A stretch of DNA of 34,653 nucleotides from NCBI GenBank assembly GCA_001770325.1, contig MEQT01000063.1, positions 511-35,163 of the forward strand. The letters are read 5' to 3'. The position numbers were made by a program, and so were the translations under genes. Origin of the DNA: Betaproteobacteria bacterium RIFCSPLOWO2_02_64_14. GTDB taxonomy: Bacteria; Pseudomonadota; Gammaproteobacteria; Burkholderiales; SG8-41. The notes under the pieces are model-generated. The model was not told the origin of the DNA. It ran no database searches and saw nothing but the letters and a program-made list of their open reading frames with translations. Shown here one piece after another: positions 21,109 to 29,756 of this stretch; within the stretch, counting starts at the first letter, position 1, and every line of letters begins with the position of its first letter.

Positions 21109-22098
21109 ATGCAATCCATACGACTTGTCGTCGCCGCCACGCTAGCGGCGACGCTGCTGCCCACTGCGCACGTATTTGCCCAGGCGAAACAGGACGCTTA
21201 TCCGTCGCGCTCCGTGCGCATGGTGGTGCCGTTCGCGCCCGGTGGCGCCTCCGACACCGTCGGCCGCATCATCCAGCCCGCGATGGCCGCTTTGCTGAAA
21301 CAGCAGGTGGTGGTGGACAACCGCGGCGGTGCTGCCGGCAACATCGGGGTGGAAGTCGCCGTCCGCGCCAATCCCGACGGCTACACGTTTCTGCTCGGCA
21401 ACGTTGGCACGATGGCGATCAATCCGAATTACTACACCAAGTTCCCGTACCGGCCCCTGAAAGATCTCATCCCGATCACCCAGGTGGTGGACGTTCCGGG
21501 GTGCCTCGTGGTTCACCCCTCGCTCCCAATGAAGAACGTCAAGGAATTCGTGGCGCACCTGAAGGCGAATCCGGGCAAGCTCAACTACGGCTCGCCGGCG
21601 CCTTCCAGCGCAAACCGGCTGGAGATGGAGATGTTTCTGGCGGCCACCGGAACGAAAGCCGTCCAGATAAACTACAAAGGCGGTGCGGGGCCCGCAATGA
21701 TCGGGCTGCTCGCCAATGAGGTCCAGATAATGTTCGTGACCTTTTCCTCGGCGGTCAACTTCGCCAAGCAGGGACGGGTGCGCATGCTCGGCGTGATTTC
21801 ACCGGAGCGCAATCCCGCCTATCCCGAGATTCCGACGATGCGCGAGCAGGGCTTCAACATGGCCGTGGGCTCCTGGCAGGGCACTTTCGTGCCCAAGGGC
21901 ACGCCGCAAGCGGTGGTGAACAAGCTGTTCAAGGCCGGGGTAGAGATGATGAAAGATCCCCAGGTCGTCAAGCGCCTCGGTGACAGCGGGATCACCATCG
22001 TCTCCAGCAAATCATCGGCTGATTTTGTCGCCTTCGTGAAGAGCGAGACCGGCCGCTATGGCAAAGTCATCAAGGACGCGAACATCCGCACGGAATGA
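21109..22098 (+). CDS. Tripartite tricarboxylate transporter (TctC/Bug) substrate-binding protein
   Basis: Signal peptide MQSIRLVVAATLAATLLPTAHVFAQA; YPSRSVRMVVPFAPGGASDTVGRIIQPAM...QVVVDNRGGAAGNIGVEVAVRANPDGYTFLLGN. Confidence 0.95.
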   Translation: MQSIRLVVAATLAATLLPTAHVFAQAKQDAYPSRSVRMVVPFAPGGASDTVGRIIQPAMAALLKQQVVVDNRGGAAGNIGVEVAVRANPDGYTFLLGNVGTMAINPNYYTKFPYRPLKDLIPITQVVDVPGCLVVHPSLPMKNVKEFVAHLKANPGKLNYGSPAPSSANRLEMEMFLAATGTKAVQINYKGGAGPAMIGLLANEVQIMFVTFSSAVNFAKQGRVRMLGVISPERNPAYPEIPTMREQGFNMAVGSWQGTFVPKGTPQAVVNKLFKAGVEMMKDPQVVKRLGDSGITIVSSKSSADFVAFVKSETGRYGKVIKDANIRTE

Positions 22099-22297
22099 GC
22101 CGCGACAAGAGGTCGCACCGCTGCTGCGCGGCCCCTTGCGATGGTTTCCCGGGAATGCTAGATTTGCACACTGATTGCATCCGAAAAATGCGGTCGCGGC
22201 ATCGGCAGCTCGACGGCTCCCTCCCTGCATTCACTTCTGATTGTCAAGATAACTGATTTCTGTACTCGCAACACCCCATTCACACTGGAGAAAGAAC

Positions 22298-23569
22298 ATG
22301 GCCAACTTCGGCATCGCGGGACTGGACTGGCAACAGCGCGTCAACTGGGACCGTCTCCGCAAGTATCGCACCGAGCGCGCCCGTGAGCGCATGAAGGCAC
22401 ACGGGCTCGGCGCAATGCTGCTCATGTACGATGAAAACTGCCGTTATGTCACCGGGACGCTCACGCCTGGCTGGAACCGGCTGAAACCCGGCCTAAGGTA
22501 CGCTTTGCTGTGCGGCGACGACGCGCCGGTGCTCTTCGAACAGGGCGACATCGGCTACCAGGTCCATAAGCATTCGCCTTGGATTCCGAAGGATCACGTG
22601 CGCTGGTCGTATGCCTGGATCAAGGGTGCGGCAGGCGCTGCATCGCTCGCCCAGGTCACCAAGTTCACCAATGCGCTGAAGCAGGAAATGAAGAAGGCCG
22701 GTGTCGAGGGCATGAAGCTCGGCGTCGACTTCGTCGATATCAACATGATCCAGATCTTCAAGGACTCGAAAATCGACTGGACCGACGGCATGACGCCGAT
22801 GATGGAGGCGCGCGCGGTCAAGAACGAGGACGAGCAGGAGTGCCTGCGCATCGTGGGAGCGATCGGCGACGCCGCACACTGGGAGTTCATGAAGTTTCTC
22901 AAGCCCGGTCGCACCGAGAACCAGATGACGGCGCACATCATGGAGTACCTGTATTCGGTTCCCGGCATGGAGGATGTCGAGGACGTGATCGTTTCCGCCG
23001 GTCCGAACACGTGGCCCAACTGGCGCAACTTTTCCGACCGCATCATCCAGCCTGGCGACATCGTCTTCATGGATCTCGCCGCGCTCACCTGGAACGGTTA
23101 CAAGTCGTGCTACTACCGCACCTACTGCGCGGGCAAGGAGCCGACCCAGGAGCAGAAGGAAGTCTACGCCACTGCGCTCAAATGGCTCTACGATTCGATG
23201 AAGGCCGTGAAGGTCGGCACCACGACGCGCGAGATTGCGTCCAAATGGCCCTCCGCCAAGGAAGCGTGGGGCTACGCCGAGGAAGATCAGGCGGCCGCCA
23301 ACCTGTGGGGCCACGGGCTAGGCCTTGCCCAGTACGACATGCCGGTCATTTCGCGCATCTGGTCGCTCGACCATCCGGTCGAGATCAAAGACGGGATGGT
23401 GTTCGCCCTCGAGACCCAGCACGGCAAAATGTACCAGTGGGGCGTGCGCATCGAGGAAATGCTGATCGTGCACAAGGATCGGGTCGAGCTCATTTCCAAC
23501 TTCCCGGTCGAGCAGATCACCGTCGTCGATCCGATGCCCGGTTATTCATCGCTCGGATGGTCCCAGTGA
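22298..23569 (+). CDS. M24 family (Xaa-Pro peptidase/creatinase-like) protein
   Basis: 423 aa; GDIVFMDLAALTWNGYKSCYYRTY, GHGLGLAQYDMP, GMVFALETQHG, GVRIEEMLIV: pita-bread fold motifs; RBS GGAGAAAG. Confidence 0.88.
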   Translation: MANFGIAGLDWQQRVNWDRLRKYRTERARERMKAHGLGAMLLMYDENCRYVTGTLTPGWNRLKPGLRYALLCGDDAPVLFEQGDIGYQVHKHSPWIPKDHVRWSYAWIKGAAGAASLAQVTKFTNALKQEMKKAGVEGMKLGVDFVDINMIQIFKDSKIDWTDGMTPMMEARAVKNEDEQECLRIVGAIGDAAHWEFMKFLKPGRTENQMTAHIMEYLYSVPGMEDVEDVIVSAGPNTWPNWRNFSDRIIQPGDIVFMDLAALTWNGYKSCYYRTYCAGKEPTQEQKEVYATALKWLYDSMKAVKVGTTTREIASKWPSAKEAWGYAEEDQAAANLWGHGLGLAQYDMPVISRIWSLDHPVEIKDGMVFALETQHGKMYQWGVRIEEMLIVHKDRVELISNFPVEQITVVDPMPGYSSLGWSQ

Positions 23570-23660
23570 GCGGGGAGTCACGCTCCTCACGCTGGAGAGA
23601 AGGTCGGAATCAGCCCGGACTTGATCCTCGGCTACCAATAACGCAAGCCGCGTGTAGAGC

Positions 23661-25016
23661 ATGATAATCGTTCCGCTTTCAGCGCCGGAAGCGACCGACG
23701 CGACGCGCTTCGGACCCAAGGCCGCCAATCTCGCTGCCCTCGGGCACGCGGGTCTGCCGACCCCGGGCGGAATCTGCGTGGATGCGGCAGCCTATCGCAT
23801 GCAGGTCGATGCTCTGGGCCTCGGTGAGGCGGCGCGGGGCGCGTTTGCCACCGAAGACGGCGCCCAGGCGAGGCGCTACGCGCTCGCAATGAAACTCGGC
23901 TTGATGGAGCGGCCCGTGGCTTCGCAGATCCTGGATCCCCTGCTCGCTGCCTGGCGCGAGTTGAAGTGCGCGAGTGGTGCTCTTACCGCGGTACGCTCTT
24001 CGGCACTGGTGGAAGACTGCGCGGGTTCCAGCTTTGCGGGGCAGTTTGAAAGCTTCATCGGCATCGAAAGCGAAGCGGATTTTCTGACGGCGGTGCAGTC
24101 GTGCTGGGCCGCGCTCTGGTCCACGCGGGCGTTGCGTTACATGGCGACCCACGATCTCGACCCTGCTGATACTGCGATGGCGCTTCTCATCCAGCCGCTG
24201 GTCGCTGCCCACGCATCCGGCGGCGGCCTGAGCCGGACGGCCGAAGGCGATATGCTCCTCAGCGCGACATGGGGGCTGGGTTCGGCGATCGCGCAGGGTG
24301 AGGTGACGCCGGACCGTTACGAGCTCGGGCATAACGGCGAAGTGAAGCACATTCACGGCGGACGCAAGGACCACCGCGTGGACTGCATCCATCGCGAGGA
24401 ACCGGTCACCGAGGCGGTACTGGGATCACTTGTCACCGAGCCCTGCCTGTCACGGCGGCAGGCGGCGGAGCTGGGACAGCTCCTGCTCGCTGCCGAGCGG
24501 GTCATGGGCATGCCGGTTGAAATCGAATGGGCGCTGGACGACGCCGGCTTCAAGATGCTGCAGGCGCGCCCGCTCCACACCCAGACGACCGAAGTCCCTG
24601 ACGAGATCTGGCTCAACCATCCGCGGCTAAACGGTCATCCCGCGGGCGTGGGCTGGGGCACAGGACGCGCTTGCGTGATCAACTGCGAATGCGAGCTGTC
24701 GCGCGTCGGACCCGGCGATGTGCTGGTCACGCGCGTAGCAGGCCCCGCCTTGAGCCACATCCTGCCACGGGTTGCCGGAGTCGTCGCCGAACGCGGCGGG
24801 AGCACTTCGCACATGGCATCCCTTGCGCGCGAGCGCGGCATTCCCATGGTTCTCGGAGTGCTCGACGCCACGGAGCGCATTCCGGACGGCGCCATGGTCG
24901 CGGTGGACGGTGTCGCCGGCGTCGTGCGATGGATGCGGCAGGGCCATGATTGGAAAACGGGGAGCCGCGAAGCGGCAGGCCCCCACCCTATCGAACATCG
25001 GGCGGTCGATCACTGA
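23661..25016 (+). CDS. PEP/pyruvate-binding (ATP-grasp) plus PEP-utilizing phosphohistidine-domain protein, PEP-synthase-like
   Basis: 451 aa; FGPKAANLAALGHAGLPTPGGICVDAAAY, AVRSSALVEDCAGSSFAGQFESFIGI, EIEWALDDAGFKMLQARPL, GGSTSHMASLARERGIPMVLG. Confidence 0.87.
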   Translation: MIIVPLSAPEATDATRFGPKAANLAALGHAGLPTPGGICVDAAAYRMQVDALGLGEAARGAFATEDGAQARRYALAMKLGLMERPVASQILDPLLAAWRELKCASGALTAVRSSALVEDCAGSSFAGQFESFIGIESEADFLTAVQSCWAALWSTRALRYMATHDLDPADTAMALLIQPLVAAHASGGGLSRTAEGDMLLSATWGLGSAIAQGEVTPDRYELGHNGEVKHIHGGRKDHRVDCIHREEPVTEAVLGSLVTEPCLSRRQAAELGQLLLAAERVMGMPVEIEWALDDAGFKMLQARPLHTQTTEVPDEIWLNHPRLNGHPAGVGWGTGRACVINCECELSRVGPGDVLVTRVAGPALSHILPRVAGVVAERGGSTSHMASLARERGIPMVLGVLDATERIPDGAMVAVDGVAGVVRWMRQGHDWKTGSREAAGPHPIEHRAVDH

Positions 25017-25051
25017 TCCCGCTTCCCGGTTCACGTCGTGATGGAAAGCCC

Positions 25052-25504
25052 ATGACGCAACGATTACGCAGCATCACGGACGCAGAAGCAACTGGTGCGG
25101 TCAAGGAGATCTTCGAAGCCTCGAACCGCCTCCTGGGACGCACGGCGAACCTGTCGCGCATCCTGGCCCACAGCCCGTACGTCGCGCGCTTCTTCCTGCC
25201 CCTGGTCGCCGCAGTACGACAGCCCAACGCCGGCGCGGTATCGGACGTGCGCCTGCGCAACCTTGCCGTGCTCATGACATCTACCGTCAACGGGTGCCGT
25301 TACTGAACAGAGCACAACCGGGTGATCGTGGAGATCTCCCTTAGCACCGCGATGTTCAACATGATCAGCCGCCTTAACGACTCTTTCCGTACGGAACTCG
25401 AATCCGAAGAATACAATCGCCGGCAACACGAGGCGGTGGGAGTCACGCGCGAGGCCCTGGAGGACTACGCGTGCCGTATCTGCGCCAGAAGGGACGATGC
25501 GTGA
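25052..25504 (+). pseudogene. Carboxymuconolactone decarboxylase/AhpD-like gene interrupted by an in-frame UGA at the CxxC position
   Basis: ORF segments 25052-25306 and 25307-25504 share one frame: ...LRNLAVLMTSTVNGCRY-[UGA]-TEHNRVIVEISLSTAMFNMISRLNDSFRTELESEEYNRRQHEAV...; family motif expected is CxYCTxHN. Confidence 0.7.
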
Positions 25505-25520
25505 TCAGTGATCCGAAAAG

Positions 25521-25598
25521 CGAAAAGCGTGATCCGTGAACTGTCCAGGGCCAGAAGACCCGTTGCGACTTACGTCGGTTCACGGCTCACGCTTCTCG
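25521..25598. repeat. Imperfect inverted repeat within degenerate GTGATC/TTCACG-type intergenic repeats
   Basis: CGAAAAGCGTGATCCGTGAAC (25521-25541) vs GTTCACGGCTCACGCTTCTCG (25578-25598), 19/21 inverted match. Confidence 0.75.
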
Positions 25599-25647
25599 AT
25601 TCACGCCTCAGCTCCATCGGCCCACGGCTTACGAATTCACGCGCCTG

Positions 25648-26628
25648 ATGCGTCCCAGGATTTTCATCACGCAACCTATCCCGGCAGGCGCGGTGGAACG
25701 CATGCGCCGCGCGGCGGAGGTCGAATGGAATCCCGATCCTCTCCACATCATGACCAAGGGCGAGTTGCTGGATGTCGTCCGGCACTGCGACGTTCTCGTC
25801 TGCCTGCTGCACGATCACGTTGATGCCGACGTGATTCATGCAAACCCGCAATTGAAGGCCATCGCATCCATGACCGTCACCCCCGCGGATATAGACGTTG
25901 CCGCGGCGACCGAACGGCAGGTGCCGGTTACGGTCGTTCCGGCGCCGTTGCTCGACGATGCCACCGCTGATTTGACCTGGGCGCTGCTGCTCGCCACCGC
26001 CAGGCGCGTGGCGGAAGGCGACCGCCTGATGCGTGCCGGGACCTTTCCTGGTTCGCAATCTTGTTATCTGGTGGGTGGCAGCGTGTCCGGCAAAGTTCTC
26101 GGCATTCTGGGCATGGGCGGTGTCGGGCGCGCGGTTACACGGCGCGGCGGCGGCTTTGGGATGAAGGTCCTGTATCACGACCCGAAGCGCCGCACCATGG
26201 ATGAAGAGGAGCGGCTGGGACTCACCTGGGTCGAGTTTGACGCGTTGCTGGCACGGTCGGACTTCGTCTCGGTCAACGCCAGGCTCACGCCACAGACGCG
26301 GCACCTGCTGAGCGACCGCGAATTCACCCTGATGAAGCCGACCGCATATCTCGTGAACACGGCGCGCGGTCCGATCGTGGACGAGAGGGCACTCGTGCGC
26401 GCGCTGGCCGAAGGCCGCATTGCGGGCGCGGCACTCGACGTATACGAACATGAACCGCAGCCGGACCCCGAACTCATGCGGCTGCCCAACGTAGTGTTCA
26501 CGCCCCATATCGGCAGCGCCGACATGGAAACGCGCGACGCGATGGCGAATATCGTGGCGGACAATGTGCTGGCGGTCATTGCGGGCCGCCGTCCGCCCAA
26601 CTGCTGCAATCCTGAGATCTACGCGTGA
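25648..26628 (+). CDS. D-isomer-specific 2-hydroxyacid dehydrogenase
   Basis: 326 aa; GKVLGILGMGGVGRAV, VNTARGPIVDERAL, ALDVYEHEPQPDPEL, FTPHIGSAD. Confidence 0.93.
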   Translation: MRPRIFITQPIPAGAVERMRRAAEVEWNPDPLHIMTKGELLDVVRHCDVLVCLLHDHVDADVIHANPQLKAIASMTVTPADIDVAAATERQVPVTVVPAPLLDDATADLTWALLLATARRVAEGDRLMRAGTFPGSQSCYLVGGSVSGKVLGILGMGGVGRAVTRRGGGFGMKVLYHDPKRRTMDEEERLGLTWVEFDALLARSDFVSVNARLTPQTRHLLSDREFTLMKPTAYLVNTARGPIVDERALVRALAEGRIAGAALDVYEHEPQPDPELMRLPNVVFTPHIGSADMETRDAMANIVADNVLAVIAGRRPPNCCNPEIYA

Positions 26629-26747
26629 GTTGAAAACTCTATCTGTACGGCGTGATTCGTGAGCCGTGACCCGACTGAACCGCGCCGTGCGTGACTCTCG
26701 GATCACGGATTACAGATCACCGTTCACGCATTTGAAAGGAAGATAAC

Positions 26748-27737
26748 ATGGCTGCCAAGGCAAAAGTGGTGCTCACGGATTACGTGTGGGATTCGCTCGA
26801 CGTCGAAAAACGCACCCTGGAGGGGCTCGCCGACCTGGTGCCGCTGAAGACCAAGACGCCAGATGAATTTCTGGGTGAAGCCGCCGACTGCGACGCGCTG
26901 CTCAATACCTATGCCGGGCCGATCACGGCGGAAGTGATGGCGAAAATGCCGAAGTGCCGGATCATCGCGCGCTACGGCATCGGGGTGGACACCATCGATC
27001 TGGAGGCGGCGACGCAGGCTGGAATCATCGTCACCAACAATCCGACCTATTGCATCGAAGAGGTTGCCGAACACACGATGGCGCTGCTGCTCTCCGCCGC
27101 CCGCAAGGTCGCCTTCTACGACCGCCTGGTGCGTGCCGGGCGCTGGGAGGTGCCGCCCGGCAAGCCGATTTCGCGCATCGCCGGCAGCACCCTCGGCCTG
27201 GTCGGTTTCGGCAACATCGCGCGCCGTGTGGCGGTGTGCGCGGCGTCGCTCGGCATGCGGGTCCTGTATTGCGATCCTTTCGTGAAGGACGGCCAGTTCG
27301 ACGCACCGGGCAAGAAGATGGAACTCCATGCCATGCTCGGCGAGTCGGATTTCGTGTCAGTACATCCGCCGCTCACTCCCCAGACACGCAAGATGATCGA
27401 CGACGAGGCATTCGCCCGCATGAGGCCGAATGCCATCATCGTCAACTGCTCGCGCGGCCCGGTGATCGATACCGACGCACTGGTGCGCTCGCTCGATGCG
27501 AAGAAGATTGCCGGTTGTGCACTCGATACCACCGATCCCGAGCCGCTGCCCAACCCGCATCCATTGCGGGGGCGAGAGAACGTCATCATCAATCCCCACG
27601 CCGCCTGGTACAGCGAGGACGCGATGAAGGGACTTCAGGCTGGCGCGCCAGCGGAGGTGAAGCGCGTGCTGACTGGTGAGTGGCCAATCAACGTCGTCAA
27701 CAAGGCGGTCAAGGGAAGAAATCGCGCCGGGCTTTAA
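26748..27737 (+). CDS. C-terminal-binding-protein-like D-2-hydroxyacid dehydrogenase
   Basis: 329 aa; RIIARYGIGVDTIDLEAAT, LGLVGFGNIARRVA, VNCSRGPVIDTDAL, ALDTTDPEPLPNPHPL, INPHAAWYSEDAM. Confidence 0.93.
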   Translation: MAAKAKVVLTDYVWDSLDVEKRTLEGLADLVPLKTKTPDEFLGEAADCDALLNTYAGPITAEVMAKMPKCRIIARYGIGVDTIDLEAATQAGIIVTNNPTYCIEEVAEHTMALLLSAARKVAFYDRLVRAGRWEVPPGKPISRIAGSTLGLVGFGNIARRVAVCAASLGMRVLYCDPFVKDGQFDAPGKKMELHAMLGESDFVSVHPPLTPQTRKMIDDEAFARMRPNAIIVNCSRGPVIDTDALVRSLDAKKIAGCALDTTDPEPLPNPHPLRGRENVIINPHAAWYSEDAMKGLQAGAPAEVKRVLTGEWPINVVNKAVKGRNRAGL

Positions 27738-27917
27738 CCGGCATCTCGAGTAACGGGAGCCCATCTTGCGCGGTCTGACATGGGCCACGCGCGATTTCTT
27801 ATCGTACGCTTCCTCGTTCGAGTTTCAGGCCGCGATCCCCGAGACACCACTTCGAGATGATCGCCGGGAAGGCGGAAAGCGCTGCCGCCCAACAGTCGAT
27901 CGTCGCCAGCCGTACCT

Positions 27918-29756
27918 TCAAAGAGCGCGCTCAAGCTGCTCGCGCTGGGCTATCAACGCCCGGGGCAGGCGCGCCTTGAGTGACTCGAAGAATTCCGCAT
28001 GGCCCTTCAGTTCTTCGCGCCACAGTTCCCGATCCACGGCAACCAGTCGCTCGAAGCTTTCCCGGCCGAACCCGTCCAGCCCCTGCCACTCCATGTCCTC
28101 GTAGCGCGGCATGCGCCCAAGCGGAGTATCGACCGCGCCCGCCTTGCCGTTGCAACGTTCCACGATCCACTTCAACACGCGCATGTTCTCGCCGTATCCC
28201 GGCCACATGAACTTGCCATTCTGATCGAGTCGGAACCAGTTCACGCCGAAAATGCGGGGCGGTTCCTTGAGGGTGCTTCCAACCTTGAGCCAGTGCTGGA
28301 AGTAATCGCCAAAGTGGTAACCACAGAACGGCAGCATCGCGAACGGATCGCGGCGCACCACGCCCACCTGTCCCACGCTCGCCGCCGTCGTCTCGGAGGC
28401 CATCGTGGCCGCCATATAGACCCCCTGTTCCCAATTTACCGCTTCTCTCACCAGGGGTATGGTGGTCGCGCGCCGCCCGCCGAAGAGAAACGCGCTGATC
28501 GGCACGCCGTCGGGATTCTCCCAGTCGGGATCGACGCATGGGATCTGGCTGGAATGCACCGTGAAGCGCGCGTTGGGATGGGCGGCTTTGCGCCCGCAGC
28601 CCGGCGTCCACGCGTTGCCCTGCCAGTCGATGAGCTCTGGCGGCGGCTCCTTCGTCATGCCTTCCCACCACACGTCACCGTCCGGCGTCAGCGCCACATT
28701 GGTGAAGATGGTGTCGTGCGTGACCGCTGCCATGCAATTCTTGTTGGTGAAGTCCGAGGTGCCCGGCGCGACACCAAAGGCACCGGCTTCCGGATTGATC
28801 GCGTAGAGCCGGCCGTCTTTCCCGGGCTTGACCCAGGCGATGTCCTCGCCGATGGTCGTCACCTTCCAGCCCTTCAGTGCCGCTGGCGGAATCAGCATCG
28901 CAAGATTGGTTTTTCCGCATGCGCTCGGAAACGCCGCGGCGATGTAGCGCTTCGCGCCGTCCGGCGGCTCAATTCCCAGGATCAGCATGTGCTCTGCAAG
29001 CCAGCCCTGCTCGCGCGCCATGATCGAGGCGATGCGCAGCGCGAAACATTTCTTTCCGAGCAACGCATTGCCGCCGTAGCCGCTGCCGAACGACCAGATC
29101 TCCTTGGTCTCCGGGAAGTGCACGATGTACTTGTGCTCCTTGTTGCTGGGCCAGCGGGCATCCGTCTGTCCCGGCGCGAGCGGCGCCCCCACCGAGTGCA
29201 CGCACGGCACGAAGTAGCCGTCGCGCCCGAGCACGTCCAGCACCCTGCGGCCGGTGCGCGTCATGATGCGCATGCTGGCCACAACATACGGCGAATCCGT
29301 AAGTTCGACGCCGATGTGCGCAATATGCGACCCCAAGGGCCCCATGCTGTAAGGGATGACGTACATCGTCCGCCCGCGCATGCAGCCGTCGAACAGACTG
29401 TTCAGGGTTGCGCGCATCTCGGCCGGCGCGATCCAGTTGTTGTTCGGGCCCGCATCCTCACGGTCCTTGCTGCAGACGAACGTGCGCTCTTCCATGCGGG
29501 CGACATCATCGGGATCGGATCGCGCGAGGAAGCACCCGGGACGTTTATCCGGGTTGAGCTTGATCAACATGCCCGAGGCGACCATCTCGGCGCACAATCC
29601 GTCGTATTCCTCCTGCGAGCCGTCACACCAGTAAACGCGGTCGGGTTTGGCAAGTTTCGCCACCTCCTGCACCCAGTGCGCGAGTTTGTGATGGTCGACG
29701 TAGTCTGGATACGATTCAGGCTGTCGGACCTGAGCCGCGGTAGCGGGCTGCTTCAT
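27918..29756 (-). CDS. pckG: Phosphoenolpyruvate carboxykinase (GTP)
   Basis: From [81 protein letters not shown]. Confidence 0.96.

Follow-up and report, generated by a model that had tools for sequence, protein, structure and literature searches.

A reading frame interrupted by a single in-frame UGA in Betaproteobacteria bacterium RIFCSPLOWO2_02_64_14 is probably a recently broken, decayed copy of a real CxxU selenoprotein gene of the CMD/AhpD-like type, a gene that we consider dead or dying. The frame lies in a stretch of 34,653 nt (here called the window). An initial annotation, made from the sequence of the window alone, had proposed either a selenoprotein or a decayed gene and leaned toward decay. 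Both parts of that proposal can be retained: the machinery, UGA and SECIS speak for a bona fide selenoprotein family, while this copy has decayed, having lost its SECIS and 62 codons.

Direct reading confirmed a single frame from the ATG at 25052 to a TGA stop at 25502-25504, with the TGA at 25304-25306 as its sole interruption. The gene comprises 150 codons counting the UGA, plus the stop, compared with 209-218 codons in its orthologues, and its product would have 150 residues if the UGA were read as a residue. As the initial annotation had noticed, the UGA (codon 85 of 150, in the context NGCRY-UGA-TEHN) stands in place of the second Cys of the CxxC(xx)H motif of an AhpD/CMD-like protein; C82, UGA85 and H88 are kept in every aligned orthologue. 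Because most of the CMD domain is deleted, the window copy matches the Pfam CMD model (PF02627) only as a fragment, with 14.7 bits and thus below the gathering cut-off of 23. Against TIGR01926 it reaches 36.8 bits in all (cut-off 81.8), with the N-terminal half matching. An Rfam scan of the gene region returned nothing relevant, a promoter and terminator scan found nothing, and a scan of the window for further UGAs followed by GG-loop hairpins gave candidates only in frames without visible gene support.

Table 1. Coordinates of the features discussed in the text; positions without a contig label are those of the window.
Feature	Position	Strand	Remarks
CMD/AhpD-like gene of predicted selenoprotein origin, internally truncated	25052..25504	+	ORF reading and orthologues in 44 genomes
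Redox motif C-R-Y-[UGA]-T-E-H (CxxUxxH)	25295..25315	+	Cys codon 82, predicted catalytic; His codon 88
Predicted selenocysteine UGA codon (codon 85)	25304..25306	+	TGA in orthologues, TGC/TGT in alphaproteobacterial Cys forms
Junction hairpin GGG-U-GAUC-(GUGGA)-GAUC-U-CCC	25320..25340	+	Loop 21 nt after UGA
Junction of in-frame 186-nt deletion	25323..25325	+	1 nt ambiguity
Upstream neighbor, PPDK_N / PEP-utilizer domain protein	23661..25016	+	Synteny conserved
Downstream neighbor, D-2-hydroxyacid dehydrogenase	25648..26628	+	Synteny conserved
SelA	C129:12198-13307		E 1.7e-159
SelB	C129:13457-15343		447 bits
tRNA-Sec	C129:18020-18110		77.6 bits, cut-off 47
SelD	C56		412 bits

Because TGA is kept at codon 85 across the close orthologues, the UGA of the window gene is predicted to be an inherited selenocysteine codon and not a random nonsense mutation. 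We ran a read-through search over 199 related genomes, in which close orthologues were those with 61-86% identity across about the first 100 residues; they were present in 44 other genomes, with one in-frame TGA apiece. The TGA was codon 85 in 28/28 full-length orthologues (209-218 codons) read codon by codon, and in 45/45 betaproteobacterial genes. The initial annotation had left room for close homologues that all have TGC or TGT at this codon; alignment placed a UGA at the same codon in others. In a wider scan, restricted to one genome per species, the motif could be read in 78 relatives, with TGA in 62, TGC in 13 and TGT in 3. Alphaproteobacteria are the source of the Cys forms and Betaproteobacteria of most UGA forms; some UGA forms are in records labelled Rokubacteria, Chloroflexi, Nitrospinota, Rhodospirillales or Rhodospirillaceae. 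Some record titles are evidently wrong: MAGs are filed, for example, under "Bordetella parapertussis" or "Chitinophaga pinensis".

The source assembly is a 3.94-Mb draft of 304 contigs that is 90.8% complete and, judging by its relatives, of betaproteobacterial type. The initial annotation had pointed to selA, selB, selC and selD as the genes on whose presence recoding would depend, and selA, selB, the tRNA-Sec gene and selD are all found in this genome (Table 1). The selD gene has its own in-frame UGA (HGGG-U-GCK, around position 1531 of L060), followed by a strong hairpin with the loop GGU. Four more CMD-family matches occur in the same genome (L007 on C115, L004 on C81, L024 on C194 and L025 on C302), each with one in-frame TGA at the second Cys and a CMD-type frame continuing beyond it. 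Their motifs are NECRY-U, NSCNY-U, HGCHY-U and SCTY-U, and in all four the UGA is followed by a hairpin with GG in its loop; two of the loops have GGUC and one has GGUCU. One Sec gene of the genome has the loop CGGC. Judging from these frames and hairpins, the genome is predicted to hold a multi-gene set of CMD selenoproteins. SelA was found in 43 of the 44 orthologue-bearing genomes, the exception being an 84%-complete draft; because nearly all family members have SelA, this co-occurrence within the family is weakly informative (p = 0.03). The region between selB and tRNA-Sec (L028 4458-8996) contains, as judged by eye, a thioredoxin-reductase-like flavoprotein gene and a sulfatase-like gene, and the flavoprotein could have a selenium or thiol redox role.

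In almost all betaproteobacterial orthologues, the UGA is followed by the sequence GTG CTT GGT CAA GCA CTG. Its RNA folds into the hairpin GUGCUU-GGUC-AAGCAC, the loop of which lies 21 nt downstream of the UGA. With this spacing of 21, the hairpin conforms to the bSECIS rules, namely a loop of 3-9 nt, a stem of at least 4 bp, a G in the first two loop positions and a spacing of 16-37 nt (PMC13188914). Codons 91-96 have a synonymous diversity of 0.02, the lowest of any 6-codon stretch within the examined codons 1-107; the mean for codons 1-84 is 0.48. Among 36 distinct sequences, the six pairs are formed in 97.2% of cells and three of them change on both sides. Covariation was 0.200 vs. 0.082 in shuffled data, with 0/500 shuffles as high, although the shuffle ignores relatedness; slid versions of the helix reached at most 0.116. 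Covariation is also suggested by L097, a Rokubacteria record in which the pair adjoining the loop shows a compensatory change from U-A to C-G, and by distant relatives in which pairs at the stem base differ. The loop GGUC is present in 49/49 distinct UGA sequences but in 4/16 Cys-type relatives, and the stem, in which a mean of 5.88 of the 6 pairs are formed in UGA sequences, is broken in the Cys-type relatives (mean 3.25). Hairpin and UGA thus occur together, as expected of a SECIS. When single-sequence folding with a limit of -7.5 kcal/mol was applied, only 12 of the 28 orthologue SECISs passed, owing to competing folds or weaker local energy. Folding with the published energy limit was therefore not used to judge the presence of a SECIS, conservation and covariation together being the stronger test. 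The CUUGGUCAA hairpin core also recurs in UGA-type relatives labelled Chloroflexi, Nitrospinota and Rhodospirillaceae (L120, L121, L134-L140), and Cys-type Alphaproteobacteria are without it.

Compared with full-length orthologues, the window copy is short of the 62 codons that follow TEHNRV, which correspond to orthologue codons 92-153. The jump to the family's C-terminal region that was suspected in the initial annotation is thus real, with exactly 62 codons (186 nt) absent. The deletion begins about 18 nt after the UGA. In the window the orthologue SECIS would begin at 25322, where GUG is all that is left of the hairpin; because the orthologues' SECIS sits in the deleted stretch, there is no ancestral SECIS in this copy, which also explains why no convincing SECIS could be drawn there earlier. 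The nearest relative is a groundwater Betaproteobacteria MAG (L031, the same as L062), in which the gene is intact. A covariance model of the orthologues scored 74.6 bits on this relative, at its UGA, and 18.3 bits on the window, where the flanks alone align and 9 nt replace 27 model positions across the hairpin; the orthologues' SECIS is not retained by the window copy. Window positions 22053-28577 (6.5 kb) are collinear with the same relative at 95-97% identity. In the gene and its intact neighbors, the 186 nt are the only coding indel between the two apart from small ones where the next gene ends; the remaining indels are intergenic. Many small indels relative to this MAG were also seen between two hydroxyacid dehydrogenase genes (26623-26748).

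The AlphaFold model of the full-length protein (pLDDT 71.5) has the AhpD fold, and the deletion takes from it the end of helix H83-95, H100-107, H118-131, H139-148 and the start of H151-174. The model of the truncated product (pLDDT 48.4, pTM 0.30) is weak evidence, as its alignment was shallow and gapped. The nearest PDB entries to the full-length protein, 3c1l, 2gmy, 6k40 and 6ohi (Foldseek probability 1.00, with a sequence profile match too), are AhpD-type peroxidases and, in 6ohi, the Bmp8 debrominase; they share the same all-helical fold at 16-32% identity. We take these four to be Cys-type proteins, whereas the genes studied here have UGA instead. Judging from the fold, the intact protein probably works as a thiol/selenol peroxidase or reductase.

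We propose that the ancestor of this gene encoded a functional AhpD/carboxymuconolactone-decarboxylase superfamily selenoprotein. In the intact orthologues, SelB would bind GUGCUU-GGUC-AAGCAC, with its loop 21 nt past the UGA, and deliver Sec-tRNA, by which Sec would take the place of the second active-site Cys (CxxU). In the genome studied here, a single in-frame deletion of 186 nt removed the hairpin save its first three bases; from the protein it took three helices entirely, together with the last part of the catalytic helix and the first part of the helix after them. Translation should now mostly terminate at the UGA and yield an 84-residue fragment, and even on read-through the 150-residue product would be short of a third of the fold. 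With the SECIS and about a third of the protein deleted, this copy is in all likelihood dead or dying, and it is probably a recent relic heading to a loss that would already be completed at this locus in two congeners.

The state of the locus in related genomes is consistent with such a course. Two congeners (G002 and G003) have the gene intact, and in two others (G001 and G004; L144 and L146) it is missing altogether, the matches to the PPDK-like gene and the hydroxyacid dehydrogenase gene being separated by 195 and 291 nt in which no remnant of a CMD gene was seen. Because other genera keep the gene at the same place (L064, L066, L070, L093), loss is the simplest reading of its absence in G001 and G004, with the window copy resembling an intermediate in this process. 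Relative to the nearest relative, synonymous and non-synonymous changes number 15:6 in the CMD gene and 115:44 in the flanking genes, with no relaxed selection visible yet; decay was therefore judged from structure and not from evolution. The deletion is exactly in frame, which counts against decay. Two private substitutions at otherwise invariant sites (K75M and N106S) were considered as a sign of relaxed constraint and dropped, since the substitution ratio was no different from that of the flanking genes.

The main alternative to a recently broken gene is an error of assembly or binning, in which case the organism would have an intact gene of 212 codons and the 186-nt gap would be a draft error or a minority variant. 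An assembly in 304 contigs, the intact state and normal constraint of the rest of the locus, and the chance that the 186 nt sit in the unassembled part of the genome would all be compatible with this. However, the two sides of the junction are homologous over only about 1 nt and are not flanked by a repeat, and short-read assemblers need reads spanning such a join. In addition, the deleted stretch was found nowhere else in the 91%-complete draft, and loss is made plausible by the gene being wholly lost in two congeners. We consider an error of this kind unlikely.

A recently broken selenoprotein gene also has to accommodate a second hairpin, which spans the junction (Table 1). It has an energy of -9 to -10.6 kcal/mol and a G at the first loop position, and it agrees with the general rules for bacterial SECISs, its loop being again 21 nt from the UGA; this loop is GUGGA and not the lineage's GGUC. 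Of the outcomes that the initial annotation had named as refuting a selenoprotein, the lack of a SECIS-like fold downstream is the only one to apply, and it applies in part: the ancestral SECIS is gone, but a different SECIS-like hairpin has formed at the junction. In 1536 simulated in-frame deletions of the nearest relative's gene, 9.5% gave a SECIS-like hairpin and 1.0% gave one at 21 nt, while random window positions gave 16% and 0.65%, respectively; as the match in spacing was spotted after the fact, the figure of about 1% overstates its weight. Chance is the best account of the junction hairpin. Alternatively, the truncated gene may still be decoded, with GGG joined to a pre-existing GAUC-GUGGA-GAUC hairpin that acts as a SECIS for a 150-residue mini-selenoprotein. 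The energy, spacing and first loop base of the hairpin, the preserved frame and the lack of any sign of relaxed constraint would agree with this, but the frequency of such hairpins in simulated deletions and at random positions, a loop that differs from the GGUC, GGUCU, GGU or GG of the genome's other CMD UGA genes and selD, and a product that is without three helices and models poorly make it very unlikely. It is likewise very unlikely that the deletion that destroyed the SECIS also made a working substitute at the junction, at the same distance, from which a shortened selenoprotein is still made; if true, the SECIS would have been replaced in a single step. Lastly, the gene could be an ordinary pseudogene that was never a selenoprotein gene, its UGA being a random nonsense mutation in a CMD gene of the Cys type. 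This would fit a UGA breaking an otherwise Cys-type motif in a family with Cys relatives, but is ruled out for practical purposes by the orthologue set, in which codon 85 is TGA in every close orthologue read, together with the conserved SECIS and the full Sec machinery.

Selenoproteins of the CxxU AhpD/CMD kind are already known: they were first reported from Sargasso Sea metagenomes in 2005 (PMC1088965) and are listed in Table 1 of PMC13188914. The AhpD-like (COG2128 / TIGR01926) and CMD-domain (PF02627) selenoproteins are of the same superfamily, with CxxU and a SECIS directly behind the UGA, and the window copy differs from them in having lost its SECIS and 62 codons. The intact orthologue of the nearest relative scores 75.5 bits against TIGR01926, just below the cut-off of 81.8. 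The NCBIfam model NF053654 (GroundWater_YciW, "YciW-related (seleno)protein") aligns over most of the same orthologue with 72.6 bits, far below its cut-off of 310 bits, which indicates a relative and not the same equivalog. To this kind our analysis adds a betaproteobacterial set of predicted CxxU CMD/AhpD selenoproteins with an unusually clean covarying SECIS, including four further UGA genes in one genome. It also adds a selenoprotein gene apparently caught mid-loss, in which the UGA and the frame are present, the SECIS is deleted and the neighbors are intact, and which is gone in two congeners. Automatic annotation would label it a truncated ORF and overlook both points. Among the orthologues, L095 has the UGA and SECIS intact, but its codon 129 is TAG and not the GAG of the other orthologues, which may represent either a second decaying copy or a sequencing error.
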